Origin: Actinomycetota bacterium
GTDB taxonomy: Bacteria; Actinomycetota; Acidimicrobiia; Acidimicrobiales; JAJPHD01
Length of the DNA stretch: 64,000 nucleotides
Assembly: GCA_021325455.1 (NCBI GenBank)
Contig: JAJPHD010000026.1
Location: 1 to 64,000, forward strand
Direction of reading: 5' to 3'
Positions 44,395-51,433 of this stretch are shown here, piece after piece (the first letter of the stretch is position 1; each line of letters starts with the position of its first letter). A program made the position numbers and the translations under genes. The notes under the pieces were generated by a model that was not told where the DNA came from, ran no database searches, and worked only from the letters and a program-made list of their open reading frames with translations.

Positions 44395-46002
44395 TCAGCC
44401 CTTGACGCGGCTGGCATAGCCCGCCCATTCACGCTCGCGCAGCTCGAACTTCTGGATCTTCCCGGTGGATGTCTTGGGCAGGGCTTCCATGAACTCGACA
44501 TCACGGGGCGCCTTGTAATGGGCGAGGCGCTGCCGAACATGGTCGATGAGGTCCTGAGAAGAGACCTCGACTCCGGCCTTGCGGACCACGAAGGCCTTGG
44601 GACGCTCTCCCCACTTGTCATCGGGGGCCCCGATGACCGCTGCCTCCAGCACCGCCGGGTGGGACAGGAGGGCTTGCTCCACCTCGATGGTGGAGATGTT
44701 CTCCCCTCCTGAGACAACGATGTCCTTGGCCCGGTCGCGCAGCTCGACATAACCATCAGGGTGCATGACCCCGAGGTCTCCTGAGTGGAACCAGCCGCCG
44801 GCAAAGGCCTTCGCCGTGGCCTCCTCGTCGCGGAAGTAGCCGGTCATGACGTTGTTCCCCCGCATGACGATCTCGCCCATGGTCGTGCCATCCGCCGGGA
44901 CGTCCCGCATCTGCTTGTCCACCACCCGCAACCGGTCTGCGCAGAGCATCCCCACGCCTTGCCGGGCCAGCAGCCGGGACCGCTCTCCCACCTCGAGCAG
45001 ATCCCAACCCGGCTGCCACTCGCAAAGCGAGTAGGGGCCGTAGGTCTCGGTCAGGCCGTAGACGTGCACGATGGTCGCGCCCAGCCCCTCCATCTGCTCG
45101 ATGACCGTCGGGCTGGGAGCGGCACCGGCCGTGGTGACCAGCAATGGACGCTCGAGGCGGTGGGCCTGGGGGTGGTTGGCGATCATGGTCATCACGACGG
45201 GCGCCCCGTTGAGGTGGGTGACCCCCTCGGTGTCCAGCAGGCGCCAGATCTCCTCGGGATCCACCGTCCGCAGGCAGACGTGCCTCCCGCCTGCGCCGGT
45301 CACACCCCACGTCGTGCACCAGCCATTGCAGTGGAACATGGGCAGGGTCCACAGGTAGACGCTGCCCGGACTGTGGCGAGAGTGGATGATCTCGCCCAGG
45401 GCGTTGAGGTAGGCACCCCGGTGGTGGTACATGACGCCCTTTGGCCGGCCGGTGGTGCCCGACGTGTAGTTGATAGAGATGGTGGCCCTCTCGTCCTCGA
45501 CCGACCAAGGGAGCGGTTCCTCCGAGCCGCGGGCCAGCAGCTCCTCATAGCTGGGGCCCTCCAGCACCGCCTCAGCCGGGTCGGCAGCGTCGACCAGGGT
45601 GACCGTCTCCTTGACCCGGTTCGAATCCTTGAGGCCTAGGGCCAGCTGGGCGTCGACAACGAGCATCTTGGCCCCCGAGTGCTCGAGGATGTAGCTGACC
45701 TCGGGGGGTGACAGACGGGTGTTGATAGCCACCAGGACTGCTCCCGCCAGCGGCACTCCGAAGTGGGCCACCAGCATCTCGGGCAGGTTGGGCATCAGGT
45801 AGGCCACCCTGTCCCCCGGGCCTATGCCCGAGGCCTGCAGAGCTCGCGCCAGCCGGGTGGCCTCGGCAGCGAACCGGCGGTAGGTGATACGACGGTCACG
45901 GTAGACAATGGCCTCCTTGTCCGGGAAGACAGCGGCCGAGCGCTCCAGGAGCACGAGCGGCGTCAGCTCGGTGCGGAAGACGGGCGGAGCAAGGGGATCC
46001 AT
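44395..46002 (-). CDS. AMP-dependent acyl-CoA synthetase (medium/long-chain type)
   Basis: ISINYTSGTTGRPKGVMYHHRGAYLNALGE, VYGLTETYGP, YVELRDRAKDIVVSGGENISTIEVE, LPKTSTGKIQKFELRE. Confidence 0.95.
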   Translation of the reverse strand: MDPLAPPVFRTELTPLVLLERSAAVFPDKEAIVYRDRRITYRRFAAEATRLARALQASGIGPGDRVAYLMPNLPEMLVAHFGVPLAGAVLVAINTRLSPPEVSYILEHSGAKMLVVDAQLALGLKDSNRVKETVTLVDAADPAEAVLEGPSYEELLARGSEEPLPWSVEDERATISINYTSGTTGRPKGVMYHHRGAYLNALGEIIHSRHSPGSVYLWTLPMFHCNGWCTTWGVTGAGGRHVCLRTVDPEEIWRLLDTEGVTHLNGAPVVMTMIANHPQAHRLERPLLVTTAGAAPSPTVIEQMEGLGATIVHVYGLTETYGPYSLCEWQPGWDLLEVGERSRLLARQGVGMLCADRLRVVDKQMRDVPADGTTMGEIVMRGNNVMTGYFRDEEATAKAFAGGWFHSGDLGVMHPDGYVELRDRAKDIVVSGGENISTIEVEQALLSHPAVLEAAVIGAPDDKWGERPKAFVVRKAGVEVSSQDLIDHVRQRLAHYKAPRDVEFMEALPKTSTGKIQKFELREREWAGYASRVKG

Positions 46003-46201
46003 CGGTGCACCTCCTGGAGCGCTGATGGGGGGTGGCCTCGGGCGAGGCCCGAAGCCTGGCGTCACCCTCCCGGCTGCCATCTTCTCATCCGGGCTGGGGG
46101 GCAACAAGGGCCTGCCGTCGCCGGCGGGGAGTGCAGGACAGCTCGACCCCGGGGATCGGGGAAGGATCGCCCAGGGTCAGCGAAGGATAGCCCCCGGCAC
46201 C

Positions 46202-46230
46202 TTGACGGCTCACACTCCGGGGGGGATGAT
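46202..46230 (+). promoter_or_regulatory. Sigma70-like promoter TTGACG-17-GATGAT for the second acetate-CoA ligase
   Basis: Direct reading in the divergent intergenic region. Confidence 0.4.
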
Positions 46231-46330
46231 CGGGGCAGGCCGGTCGAGCAAACGCCGGGTGCTCCATCGATTGGGCGCTGTGGCCCCTTGCAGCGAGACC
46301 CGCCCAGTTGGAACCTCCCAAGGAGCCACC

Positions 46331-48235
46331 ATGGACGTGATCAGCCCCATCGTCAAGCGCTGGGTCCACGAGGCCGAGTCCGATCACGAGGGGTTCTGGG
46401 CCCGGGCCGCCTCCGACCTCCCCTGGTTCAGGGGATGGGACCACACCTTCGAGCCTGACCCCCCCAGCTTCCGGTGGTTCACGGGCGGCCTGACCAACAT
46501 CAGCTACAACGCCATCGACCGCCACGTGGCTGGTGGGAGGGCGGGGCACACAGCGCTCATAGCCGAAGACGAGGCGGGCGGGCGGCGGTGCTACACCTAC
46601 GCCCAGCTCCTCACGGAGGTGAAGCGCATTGCCGCCGGCCTGCGGGGGCTGGGTGTGGGCAAGGGGGACAGGGTGGCGATCTACATGCCCACCATCCCCG
46701 AGGCCATCGCCGCCATGCTGGCCACCACCCGGATCGGCGCCATCCACCTCGTGGTCTTCGCCGGGTTCGGGTCCGGGGCGCTATCCGAGCGGATCCGCCT
46801 GGCGGGCGCCAAGGTCCTGCTGGCCTCGGACCTGACCCTGCGCAAGGGGAACAAGGTGTCCCTCAGCCCCATCGTCTCGGACGCGTTGGCCGACCCGGGG
46901 TCACCCATAGAGCACGTCGTGGTGATGGGCCGGGGGGGCGAGCCGGTCCGCTGGGAGAAGGCCAAGCCCCTCACGTGGGAGGAGTTCCTTGCCGGTGGTG
47001 CCGGGCAGCCCACCAGCCACGAGGTGATGGAGGCCAACGAGCCGGCCTACATACTGGCCACCTCGGGCACCACGGCCAAGCCCAAGCTGGCGGTGCACAC
47101 CCACGGGGCCTACCAGGTGGGCATCCACAGCACGGCGAAGTGGTGCTTCGGCCTCCGGCCCGACGACGTCTGGTGGTCGACCTCCGACATCGGCTGGGTG
47201 GTCGGTCACAGCTACATCGTCTACGCGCCCCTTCTCGCCGGCTGCACCACCATCGCCTACGAGGGGGCGCTCGACCATCCCGGGCCTGAGCACTTCTACC
47301 AGCTCATAGAGGACAACCACGTCACGGGGGTCTTCACGGCACCAACGGCGGTGCGGATGCTCATGCGCTACGGCACCGGGCCGGCTGAGTCTGCGGACCT
47401 CTCCAGCCTGGAGCGTGTGTTCTGCGCCGGCGAGGTGCTGAACGCCCCGGCCTGGGAGTGGCTCCAGCGTCAGGTGCTCCATGACCGGGTCCCGGTCATC
47501 GACCACATGTGGCAGACCGAGACCGGGGGCCCGGTGTTCGGGAACCCCTACGGCATCGGGATGCTGCCCATCAAGCCGGGCTCGGCGGGAATCCCGCTGC
47601 CCGGCTTCTCGGCGGAGGTTCGCAACCTGGACGGCAGCCGCTGCTCCCCAGGAGAGAAGGGGATCGTCGTGCTCACCAAGCCCTTCCCGGGGCTCACCCC
47701 CACCATCTGGGGTGATCCCGAGCGGTATGGGCGCGATTACTGGGGGATCATCCCGGGCGTGTATTTCACAGGGGATGCCGCCGAGGAGGATGAGGACGGG
47801 TACTTCTGGTTCTCGGGCCGCGCTGACGAGATCATCAAGATCGCCGGCCACCGCGTCGGCACCATCGAGGTGGAGACCGCCTTCCTGCGCCACCCGGCCG
47901 TAGCCGAGGCAGGCGTGACGGGGCGACCTGATGAGGTGAGGGGGGAGGTCATCTCGGCCTTCATCGTCCTGCGGGCGGGCCACACCCCCTCCCCCGGGCT
48001 GATCAAGGAGCTCACCGACACCGTTCGCCAGGAGCTCGGGCCCGTGGCCGTCATCGGGGAGGTGAACGTGGTCGACAGCCTGCCCAAGACCCGCAGCGGC
48101 AAGATCATGCGCCGGGTGCTGAAGGCGGTGACCCTGGACAAGGACCCCGGGGACGTCTCCACCATCGAGGACGAGGGGTCCGTGGAGGAGGCACGGGAGG
48201 CCTGGCGGCACATGAAGGAGTCGCTGGCGGGATAG
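46331..48235 (+). CDS. Acetate/propionate--CoA ligase family protein (second ACS-like paralog)
   Basis: YILATSGTTAKPKLAVHTHGAYQVG, VWWSTSDIGWVVGHSYIVYAPL, MWQTETGGPVFGNPYG, LPKTRSGKIMRRVLKAV. Confidence 0.95.
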   Translation: MDVISPIVKRWVHEAESDHEGFWARAASDLPWFRGWDHTFEPDPPSFRWFTGGLTNISYNAIDRHVAGGRAGHTALIAEDEAGGRRCYTYAQLLTEVKRIAAGLRGLGVGKGDRVAIYMPTIPEAIAAMLATTRIGAIHLVVFAGFGSGALSERIRLAGAKVLLASDLTLRKGNKVSLSPIVSDALADPGSPIEHVVVMGRGGEPVRWEKAKPLTWEEFLAGGAGQPTSHEVMEANEPAYILATSGTTAKPKLAVHTHGAYQVGIHSTAKWCFGLRPDDVWWSTSDIGWVVGHSYIVYAPLLAGCTTIAYEGALDHPGPEHFYQLIEDNHVTGVFTAPTAVRMLMRYGTGPAESADLSSLERVFCAGEVLNAPAWEWLQRQVLHDRVPVIDHMWQTETGGPVFGNPYGIGMLPIKPGSAGIPLPGFSAEVRNLDGSRCSPGEKGIVVLTKPFPGLTPTIWGDPERYGRDYWGIIPGVYFTGDAAEEDEDGYFWFSGRADEIIKIAGHRVGTIEVETAFLRHPAVAEAGVTGRPDEVRGEVISAFIVLRAGHTPSPGLIKELTDTVRQELGPVAVIGEVNVVDSLPKTRSGKIMRRVLKAVTLDKDPGDVSTIEDEGSVEEAREAWRHMKESLAG

Positions 48236-48238
48236 GGG

Positions 48239-48294
48239 CCGGCGGGGGGGTGGCCTTTCGGCCGGCGGGGGGTGGCCTTTCGGCCGGCGGGGGG
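48239..48294. repeat. About 2.5 copies of 22-bp tandem repeat tggcctttcggccggcgggggg
   Basis: 48251-48272 and 48273-48294 identical, preceded by a partial unit. Confidence 0.85.
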
Positions 48295-48407
48295 CCAGCC
48301 GGCGGGCCGGCGGGGGGCGAGGCGCCCCGCTTGGGGTGACCTGGGCAGATTCGTGCGTGTCACACCACCCATGGTGCCGACCTCGGCAACTGTCATCCTC
48401 TCCTGAT

Positions 48408-48456
48408 GTACTTGGTACCATGACGTGTAAAAAAGAACCGTCACGGTACCAAGTAC
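48408..48456. promoter_or_regulatory. Long inverted repeat: 18-bp arms (17/18 match) with 13-nt A-rich loop, spanning the candidate ATG of the AbiEi-like gene
   Basis: gtacttggtaccatgacg - tgtaaaaaagaac - cgtcacggtaccaagtac. Confidence 0.85.
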
Positions 48457-49400
48457 GCATTGACGAGTTGAAGCAGCGCCAGTACGGGTTGGTGACCTAC
48501 GAGCAGGCCCGCGCCCTCGGTGCCCCCGAACAGCATCTTCGGCGGGGACCTGGCACCAAGTGGGTCCGCGTCAAGCAAGGCATCTACCGCGATCCCTCCT
48601 TCCCCCGGTCCTGGCACCAGAAGGTCATGGCTGCGGTACTCGCCGGGGGGCCGGGCGCCCTGGCCTCCCATCGGTCAGCTGCCACCCTGCACGGTCTGCA
48701 CGAGGCAGCTCGCTGCCCGGTGGAGATCACTGTCGATCGGAGCCGCCACCCCACGTGCTACCCCGGTGCCATCGTCCACAGGAGGGCCCGGATCGAGCGC
48801 ATCGACCGAGACAGGATCGACCGCATCCCCACCACCACTGTGACCCGGACCGTGATCGACCTCTCAGCCGTGGCCAGTGCCGATCGGTTGGAAGCGGCAC
48901 TCGAGGCCGCCTTGCGCTCGGGGCGTACCTCGGTGCGGTTCCTGGAGGAACGGCTGGCAGTCCTGGGGGGCCGGGGTTGCACCGGGACCGCAGTCCTGCG
49001 CGAGGTGCTCCGCAGGCACGGGCAACAGCCACCCACCGAGAGCGATCTCGAGACGAAGTTCCTCCAGCTGCTCAGGAACGCCAACCTTCCTCTGGGGGTG
49101 GCTCAATGGCCCGTGTACATCGCAGGCCGCCTGGTAGCCAGGGTCGACCGTGCCTTCCCGGAGCAGCGGGTCCTTGTCGAGCTGGATGGTCGGGGCTCGC
49201 ACGGCACGTGGAGTGACTGGCAAAGGGACCTGAGGCGCCAGGACGAGCTGGTATTGGCCCTGCCCGGATGGCTGCTCCTCCGCTTCACCTGGAACGACGT
49301 GACCGGTCGCCCAGGGTGGGTCTTGGCCACCGTCGAGAGGGCCCTGAGCAGCGCGAACGTCCCAGGGACCCCAGCCGGCACCGGGAAGGGCAGTGCTTGA
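48420..49400 (+). CDS. AbiEi-type antitoxin N-terminal domain fused to DUF559/Vsr-like endonuclease-fold domain
   Basis: ELKQRQYGLVTYEQARALGAPEQHLRR wHTH; ALASHRSAATLHGLHE; C-term SDLETKFLQLLRNANLPLGVAQWPVYIAGRLVARVDRAFPEQRVLVELDGRGSHGTWSDWQRDLRRQDELVLALPGWLLLRFTWNDV. Start codon uncertain. Confidence 0.8.
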   Translation: MTCKKEPSRYQVRIDELKQRQYGLVTYEQARALGAPEQHLRRGPGTKWVRVKQGIYRDPSFPRSWHQKVMAAVLAGGPGALASHRSAATLHGLHEAARCPVEITVDRSRHPTCYPGAIVHRRARIERIDRDRIDRIPTTTVTRTVIDLSAVASADRLEAALEAALRSGRTSVRFLEERLAVLGGRGCTGTAVLREVLRRHGQQPPTESDLETKFLQLLRNANLPLGVAQWPVYIAGRLVARVDRAFPEQRVLVELDGRGSHGTWSDWQRDLRRQDELVLALPGWLLLRFTWNDVTGRPGWVLATVERALSSANVPGTPAGTGKGSA

Positions 49401-49508: not shown

Positions 49509-50684
49509 TTAGCGGGGCAGGGAGCTACCGGTCGCAGGGCGCTCTTGGCCAGGAGGGACACGCAGGCGTGCTGTCACCTCGTTGGCGAGAAGGCGCCCCC
49601 GAAGGGTGAGTACCAGGTTCCCCTCCTCCGCGGAGCCGCCGGCCAGCGCGGGCTCCACCAGCCCCGCTACCGCCTCATCCAGGTGACCGCCGGAAGCCGC
49701 ATCGCCGGAAGCCGCAAGGGCCCCTGCCGGAACACCCCACCGGGTCCGGAGGGCCAGCACGAGCCTCTCCATGGCCCGCTCCTCCTCCGACAGGACCTCA
49801 GAGGCAGCCACCGGCGAGGCGCCACCCATAATGGCCCCTATGTACCTCTCGGGCGTGCGTATGTTCCACCAGCGCCGGCCGTCCACATGGGAGTGGGCGG
49901 CGCACCCGATGCCGCGGTAGTTGCCCTGGGACCAGTAGAGCTGGTTGTGCCGGCACTCCTCGCCGGGGAGGGCCCAGTTGGACACCTCGTACCAGGCCAG
50001 GCCGGCGCCGCCGAGGACCGCGTCAGCCAGTTCGTAGCGGCCCGCTTGGACGTCATCGTCAGGATGGCGGGCGGGGTCAGCGGCGAGAGGCGTGCCCGGC
50101 TCGACCGTGAGGGCGTAGGCGCTCACATGCCCAGGGCGGGGTGACAGGCCGAGGACGCCTTCGAGCGTGCCCACCCAGTCGGCATCGGTCTCGCCGGCAC
50201 CCCCGTAGATGAGGTCGACGTTGATCCGCTCGAAGCCCACCGCCCCCGCCAGGGTGACGGCCCTCTTGGCCGTGGCCGGGTCATGCTGTCGCCCCAGCCC
50301 GCTCAGCACCTTGGGGGACAACGACTGGACCCCGAAGGACAGCCGGTTCACCCCTCCCTCTCGGTACGCCTCGAGGAGCGGTGCGTCCACCGTCTCCGGG
50401 TTGCACTCCACGGTCACCTCGGCATCGGGGGTCCTCGGGATGGCCGCCAGGATGGCCAAGAGGGACTCAGCGGGGAGGAGTGACGGCGTCCCCCCGCCGA
50501 AGAACACCGAGGTCGCCTCGGGCATCCCCTCCGCCACGGCAGCCTCGATCTCCCTTGTGCAGGCCGCCGTGTAGTCGGCCATCAGGTGGTGGCGGTCGGT
50601 CCAGGTTGCGAAGTCGCAGTAGTCGCAGCGGGCCGAGCAGAAGGGCACGTGCACGTACACGCCGTATGGCTGGTCCTGCCTCAT
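49509..50684 (-). CDS. hemW: Radical SAM coproporphyrinogen III oxidase-like / heme chaperone HemW
   Basis: YGVYVHVPFCSARCDYCDFATW, SVFFGGGTPSLLPAESL, RLSFGVQSLSPKVL. Confidence 0.94.
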   Translation of the reverse strand: MRQDQPYGVYVHVPFCSARCDYCDFATWTDRHHLMADYTAACTREIEAAVAEGMPEATSVFFGGGTPSLLPAESLLAILAAIPRTPDAEVTVECNPETVDAPLLEAYREGGVNRLSFGVQSLSPKVLSGLGRQHDPATAKRAVTLAGAVGFERINVDLIYGGAGETDADWVGTLEGVLGLSPRPGHVSAYALTVEPGTPLAADPARHPDDDVQAGRYELADAVLGGAGLAWYEVSNWALPGEECRHNQLYWSQGNYRGIGCAAHSHVDGRRWWNIRTPERYIGAIMGGASPVAASEVLSEEERAMERLVLALRTRWGVPAGALAASGDAASGGHLDEAVAGLVEPALAGGSAEEGNLVLTLRGRLLANEVTARLRVPPGQERPATGSSLPR

Positions 50685-51433
50685 CCGGCGCTCACCACGC
50701 CGGCCCGCAAGGCGCACAGCAGCGTCCCGGCCACCACGGCTGCCGTCTCTGCTCTCAGCACCGTCGGCCCCAGTCCCACCACCGGGAGGCCCTCCGCTAG
50801 CTCGGGAGGGGCCCACCCTCCCTCAGGCCCCACCAGCACGATGGGGTGGTCCAGCGACAGCGGCCTCCCCCCCATGTCCGCCAGGGCAGCGCCGCCGCCC
50901 TGGCCCAGCTCAGCCAGCACACCGCACGACGGGGCGGGTGGCTCCACCACCGGGAGCCACACCCGCCGGGACTGCATGGCCGCCGCCCGGGCCACCCGCT
51001 TCAGGCGCTGCATGTGCTGCTCCCCCCGCTGTCCCTCCCATCGCACCACCGAGCGCTCCGCCACCAAGAGGAGGATGCGGTCCACCCCCACCTCGGTCAG
51101 GCGCTGGACGGCCCACTCGGGACGCTGCCCCTTCACGAGGGAGAAGCCGACGGCTACGGGCGGGGTTGGCCGGTCCTCCGCCATGATGGGCCCGTCAGGG
51201 TGCAGGCGGTTGCTCCCGTCCCACCGGCAGGGCCGCCAGCGGCCCGCCCCATCGGAGATGGTGACGGCCTCCCCCCGGCGCAGGCGGAGAACCCTCGCCA
51301 GGTGGTGGCGTTCCTCGGCGCCAAGCGCCGGCTCTTCCAGGTCGTCCACCAGGAGATGGGCGGCGGCCTCGACCAGCTCGGGGGCCGGCCGTCGCGCCCC
51401 CCCGGACCCGGGCCCCCGGCCCGCTCCAGGCAC
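50681..51433 (-). CDS. rsmE: 16S rRNA m3U1498 methyltransferase
   Basis: ATMQSRRVWLPVVEPP-type region, ILVGPEGGWAPPELAEGLPVVGLGPTVLRAETA; ATGA overlap with hemW. Confidence 0.92.
   Translation of the reverse strand: MPGAGRGPGSGGARRPAPELVEAAAHLLVDDLEEPALGAEERHHLARVLRLRRGEAVTISDGAGRWRPCRWDGSNRLHPDGPIMAEDRPTPPVAVGFSLVKGQRPEWAVQRLTEVGVDRILLLVAERSVVRWEGQRGEQHMQRLKRVARAAAMQSRRVWLPVVEPPAPSCGVLAELGQGGGAALADMGGRPLSLDHPIVLVGPEGGWAPPELAEGLPVVGLGPTVLRAETAAVVAGTLLCALRAGVVSAG

Follow-up and report, generated by a model that had tools for sequence, protein, structure and literature searches.

The 49-bp palindrome that overlaps the start of an AbiEi-like gene in the window (the whole 64,000-nucleotide stretch of Acidimicrobiales DNA analyzed here) very probably belongs to a gene-linked, dispersed family of REP-like repeats. 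We consider it likely that the palindrome is a miniature repeat of a private family, tied to the adjacent AbiEi-DUF559 gene as its dedicated protein and mobilized by the nuclease of that protein. On balance, we favor a model in which the AbiEi-DUF559 protein recognizes and spreads its palindrome. We also lean, if only slightly, toward the broader view that actinobacteria harbor widespread selfish REP-like systems in which the place of an HUH transposase is taken by a fusion of an AbiEi-like DNA-binding region and a Vsr/DUF559 nuclease that recognizes and spreads a private palindrome, the specificities of protein and repeat changing together. The features of the locus are listed in Table 1.

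Table 1. Features of the palindrome and its gene neighborhood in the window.
Feature	Position	Strand	Basis
49-bp palindromic repeat, gene-associated member of a genome-private five-copy family	48408..48456	.	Inverted-repeat and covariance searches
Left arm GTACTTGGTACCATGACG, holds ATG 48420 (GTG in the family consensus)	48408..48425	+	
Right arm CGTCACGGTACCAAGTAC	48439..48456	+	
AbiEi-like/DUF559 fusion gene, 326 aa; palindrome encodes the first ~12 codons	48420..49400	+	ORF and profile matches
AbiEi-like part at the N terminus, residues 9-192; proposed to bind the palindrome	48444..48995	+	PADLOC AbiEi E=1.5e-33
DUF559 / Vsr-like PD-(D/E)XK nuclease domain, residues 242-309	49143..49346	+	DUF559 match at Pfam cut-off
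Upstream neighbor, acetyl-CoA synthetase-like; true start possibly inside the frame	45908..48235	+	ORF list
Downstream neighbor, HemW/HemN-like radical SAM gene facing the AbiEi-DUF559 gene in convergent orientation	49509..50816	-	ORF and domain match

The first-pass annotation described a near-perfect palindrome at 48408-48456 that covers a gene start, and both descriptions hold. The 18-bp arms pair at 17 of 18 positions (94% complementarity) across a 13-nt loop, and the ATG at 48420, which opens the 326-aa frame running to 49400, is the sole plausible start codon. As RNA, the region is predicted to fold with a free energy of -30.2 kcal/mol (z = -6.3), and none of 200 shuffled sequences folded equally well. 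Because the window copy has ATG where the family consensus has GTG, the lone mismatch between the arms sits at the start codon; it is plausible from this difference that a better start codon was selected for in the window copy. The palindrome lies unusually near the gene and supplies its first 12 residues, which are missing from most homologues in a 22-sequence alignment. A search for a 3′ copy or remnant of the palindrome at the window gene found none; the window keeps just the 5′ copy, which is now the source of the start codon. Upstream of the palindrome, the gap that follows the acetyl-CoA synthetase-like gene holds three GC-rich direct repeats with a spacing of 22-23 bp (48237-48317).

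Earlier assignment of the gene to the AbiEi-like proteins was borne out by the strong PADLOC match listed in Table 1; a second match, to AbiEi_4 (E=0.0013), falls under the whole-protein cut-off. The C-terminal region contains the D...ExD nuclease core of DUF559 / Vsr-like PD-(D/E)XK proteins, in which all 22 aligned homologues retain the putative catalytic residues D243 and E254 and nearly all retain D256. The C-terminal part of a profile made from these homologues matched the endonuclease-like 3hrl (E=1e-5) and the PDB chain 3r3p, ‘Mobile intron protein’ (E=0.0017), which we take to be I-Bth0305I; its N-terminal part gave weak matches to AbiGI and AbiEi chains (9hlo, 6y8q). Single-sequence structure prediction of the window protein was uninformative, with a mean pLDDT of 39. 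Scanning a collection of genome contigs with this protein yielded only one distant fragment, and the homologue alignment held no conserved stretch usable as a scan query. The window’s own genome (G000) has two further members of the family: one is full-length and is followed, beyond its stop codon, by a bulged hairpin, and the other is split over two frames and is probably a pseudogene (C22:229058-229969 and C22:278739-279657; L010, L011, and L012).

No AbiEii (DUF1814) nucleotidyltransferase toxin adjoins the gene or occurs elsewhere in the whole genome, which indicates that the window gene is not part of an AbiE toxin-antitoxin pair. The similarity of residues 9-192 to AbiEi would fit a remnant of such a pair, with an orphan antitoxin lying beside its operator. 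This explanation is largely refuted by the absence of AbiEii, by the conservation of the C-terminal region as a nuclease domain, and by the occurrence of full-length fusion homologues in many actinobacteria, and we regard it as extremely improbable.

A pattern search followed by a covariance model revealed exactly five 49-bp copies of the palindrome, an INTERSPERSED repeat, in the 2.95-Mb genome, whereas the covariance model applied to 30 relatives gave nothing comparable, the best stray match having E=0.002. The four solo copies are intergenic. According to our reading of the translations, three of them lie between convergent genes (hutI-/rluD-like, atpC-/glpX-like, and aspS-/rarA-like pairs) and the fourth occupies a gap next to an argF-like gene. 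Covariation among the five copies is limited to one compensatory pair, which is no better than shuffles and too thin to count. The palindrome had initially been read as a candidate operator of the AbiEi-like gene, and interspersion had been named beforehand as the finding that would speak against that reading; the palindrome proved to be interspersed. What survives of the operator claim is the resemblance of arm length and spacing to known AbiEi sites, but the other copies are located mostly between 3′ ends and not in promoters. This interspersion, mainly into convergent gaps, rules out a lone autorepressor operator as the full account of the repeat.

Of 99 genomes from the order, 50 contain homologues of the AbiEi-DUF559 gene, as do 53 of the 150 sampled over the phylum. 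Strong inverted repeats in 80 homologue regions of the order numbered 42 near starts and 21 near stops, compared with a background of approximately 0.01 inverted repeats (score at least 13) per 190 bp elsewhere in the homologous regions. Most of the 5′ palindromes are located no more than 150 bp upstream of the gene. A matching 5′/3′ repeat was present at 52.6% of 76 loci in the order (score at least 16) and at 0% of mismatched pairings; the corresponding values for the phylum sample were 44.8% of 67 loci and 0% of controls. With a score of at least 18, matching repeats bracket 27 of 57 homologues versus 1 of 195 neighboring genes from the same regions. The sequence of the bracketing palindrome differs gene by gene, and about half of the homologues, the window gene among them, are without a recognizable matching pair. 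The palindromes span a median of 50 bp and have loops that are most commonly 3 nt; several of them, the window copy among these, have loops of 13 nt. Their ends differ among families; GTAG appears in the own-genome consensus only inside an arm, and no GTAG tag lies beside the hairpin.

Strong hairpin potential and a position right after stop codons could also mark bidirectional terminators or mRNA-stabilizing hairpins that were spread by recombination with the gene uninvolved. Such a model does not explain why members of the AbiEi-DUF559 family are bracketed and almost no other genes are, nor why each genome has a separate sequence, and we consider it quite improbable.

Several paralogues are present in one genome, G042 (L091, L097, L109, and L113), where some of the repeats form tandem arrays. 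The palindromes of L091, L109, and L113 are alike in the outer CGAAATGT half and unlike in the inner half. A neighboring frame at L113:7290-7818 (in the homologue’s orientation), which is not itself a recognized homologue, is likewise accompanied by a matching 5′/3′ repeat with a score of 30. Some genes, at L050, L053, L103, L120, L094, and L112, have at least two tandem palindromic units per side.

When 13 genomes were scanned for 25 private palindromes, each matched its home genome only among the matches listed. Copy numbers exceeded 25 in G078 and were about 20 in G065, and some families are very small, such as that of the window’s own genome. The copies are near-identical (88-100% over the query) and lie in unrelated flanks. 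Those in G078 match at 49-51 of 51 positions and those in G065 at 43-47 of 49, with differences found mainly at the outer ends. In a crude gene call covering 40 solo copies, convergent and co-directional gene pairs each flank 18, divergent pairs flank none, and the remaining 4 fall within called frames. Many solo copies lie 2-20 bp beyond a stop codon. Placement mainly after genes, as in these repeats, has been reported for REPs (PMC3733652). An example is Tsukamurella tyrosinosolvens NCTC13231, in which TGCGGTGGAT...ATCCACCGCA stands on both sides of the gene for the DUF559 protein WP_068740572.1 and the palindrome occurs at six places in three records, the listed matches being free of annotated features. 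One copy lies 8 bp from both stops of a convergent pair and another lies between divergent genes. The records L282, L289, and L290 of this strain are labeled as plasmids and contain the housekeeping genes nrdF and pntB; they look like pieces of the chromosome.

These placements bear on the possibility that the palindrome is an autorepressor operator of the AbiEi-like protein and that the other copies are operators of its regulon. AbiEi-type proteins bind inverted repeats at their own promoters, and the known sites match the palindromes in size and spacing (PMC7319586); moreover, the window copy overlaps the start codon and most 5′ palindromes lie close upstream of their genes. A regulon, however, would not be expected to consist of dozens of near-identical, lineage-specific copies, to include matching copies past the stop codon, or to lie mostly in convergent gaps or just past stops, with the single Tsukamurella copy as the one divergent case. 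We judge this explanation unlikely. As a side effect alongside the dispersal of the repeat, the protein may repress itself through the 5′ copy, but autorepression is an incomplete account because it leaves unexplained both the dispersal and the matching 3′ copies in relatives.

In comparing two members of one genus, G065 and G009, we found that in both genomes the AbiEi-DUF559 gene is flanked by ilvC- and serC-like genes, which indicates that the locus was inherited. Both bracketing palindromes changed together, from CGAGTAAATAG+GGTGTCA in G065 to CGAGTAAATAG+CTCGCCA in G009 or the reverse, such that the outer half is common and the inner half differs. We looked for five G065 solo copies at their G009 counterparts, and all five sites were without a palindrome. 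The orthologous gene locus, together with these empty sites, argues for a fixed gene whose repeats spread in trans. Because the intergenic DNA of the congeners has diverged, this comparison revealed neither a target-site duplication nor a clean insertion junction. No correlation between repeat sequence and protein identity was seen across the whole set (Mantel rho -0.04), so the case for coevolution comes from the closest pairs, which are the only ones to have outer palindrome halves in common.

We infer that the AbiEi-DUF559 protein binds, cuts, and actively mobilizes its repeat. The unit of this process would be a repeat of about 50 bp in which two arms of about 18-24 bp flank a short loop. 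AbiEi binds two 23-bp inverted repeats separated by 3 bp, and Rv2827c binds pairs spaced by 13 bp (PMC7319586). On the strength of this likeness in span and loop, we propose that the AbiEi-like N-terminal half binds its own palindrome in the manner of AbiEi antitoxins on their operators, each arm taking up one monomer. Occupancy of both arms would put two PD-(D/E)XK nuclease domains on the repeat. The nuclease may then cut the palindrome or its vicinity, and subsequent repair or copying would seed new palindromes elsewhere, preferentially in non-coding gaps right after genes. Vertical inheritance would hold the gene at one locus, and its repeats would move in trans to other sites of the genome, comparable to REP/REPIN sequences and their RAYTs. 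Alternatively, the spread could be the work of another enzyme or of gene conversion, with the AbiEi-DUF559 gene merely binding the palindromes.

One such enzyme would be a Y1 tyrosine transposase (RAYT), encoded elsewhere, that moves ordinary REPs, leaving the AbiEi-DUF559 gene as a passenger or as a tamer that silences them. The size, placement, and dispersal of the repeats are indeed REP-like (cf. PMC3733652). Y1_Tnp, however, was absent from seven of the eight repeat-bearing genomes tested, including the window’s own genome, G065, G009, and G078, and a published survey reports that Y1 genes in high-GC Actinobacteridae are limited to the IS200 subclass (PMC6006769). We find this model very unlikely, although the protein may tame the repeats without moving them. 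The only Y1-type transposase matches in the eight genomes are located at G042:C184:24908-25192 and G042:C66:11218-11409.

In the open-access literature, we found no description of DUF559 or AbiEi proteins in connection with palindromes, REPs, or RAYTs. The gene family is abundant and poorly understood, and its members are often annotated as ‘type IV TA antitoxin’ or as DUF559 proteins. To our knowledge, REP repeats have so far been attributed to a single enzyme class, the RAYT/HUH transposases. If our model is true, a second, unrelated enzyme is tied to dispersed palindromes, and the REP lifestyle has evolved more than once. The model would also give a function to the abundant AbiEi-DUF559 gene family, provide a natural series of protein-palindrome pairs in which changes in DNA recognition can be traced, and call for caution in annotating these genes as parts of toxin-antitoxin or phage-defense systems.

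Four known systems invite comparison. The AbiE type IV toxin-antitoxin systems (PMC7319586, PMC3985639) share with the window protein an AbiEi-like N-terminal region, and their inverted repeats of about 23 bp, spaced by 3 or 13 bp and located 5′ of the gene, are comparable to the palindromes described here. They differ in that the present gene has an additional nuclease domain and no AbiEii partner, and in that its repeat also lies 3′ of the gene in relatives and is dispersed through the genome. The Vsr-like homing endonuclease of PDB 3r3p has a related nuclease domain, and this relatedness suggests a selfish or mobile use of the fold. Here, however, there is no intron; the gene is apparently fixed at its locus, and short repeats are what spread.

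Close parallels are found in the ‘REPtrons’ composed of REP/REPIN sequences and a RAYT (TnpA-REP) gene (PMC3116915, PMC3733652, PMC8266576, PMC6006769). Both involve short private palindromes dispersed in intergenic space, mainly after genes; a dedicated gene flanked by repeat copies (the 5′ copy alone in the window); and a single gene that is inherited vertically with repeats that spread in trans. The protein is an HUH Y1 transposase in REPtrons and an AbiEi-like/DUF559 PD-(D/E)XK protein here. The arms of the present repeats are longer (18-24 bp) and near-perfect, they have no GTAG-tagged foot, and the host phylum is one without REP-type Y1 genes in the cited survey (PMC6006769). CGTC-tagged REPs (PMC3733652) provide a further parallel as palindromic REP families said to be without a dedicated transposase, although they occur in other hosts and carry another sequence tag. 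Because the defining HUH transposase is absent, the repeat and its gene fall outside the REP/RAYT class, although they appear to work like a member of it.
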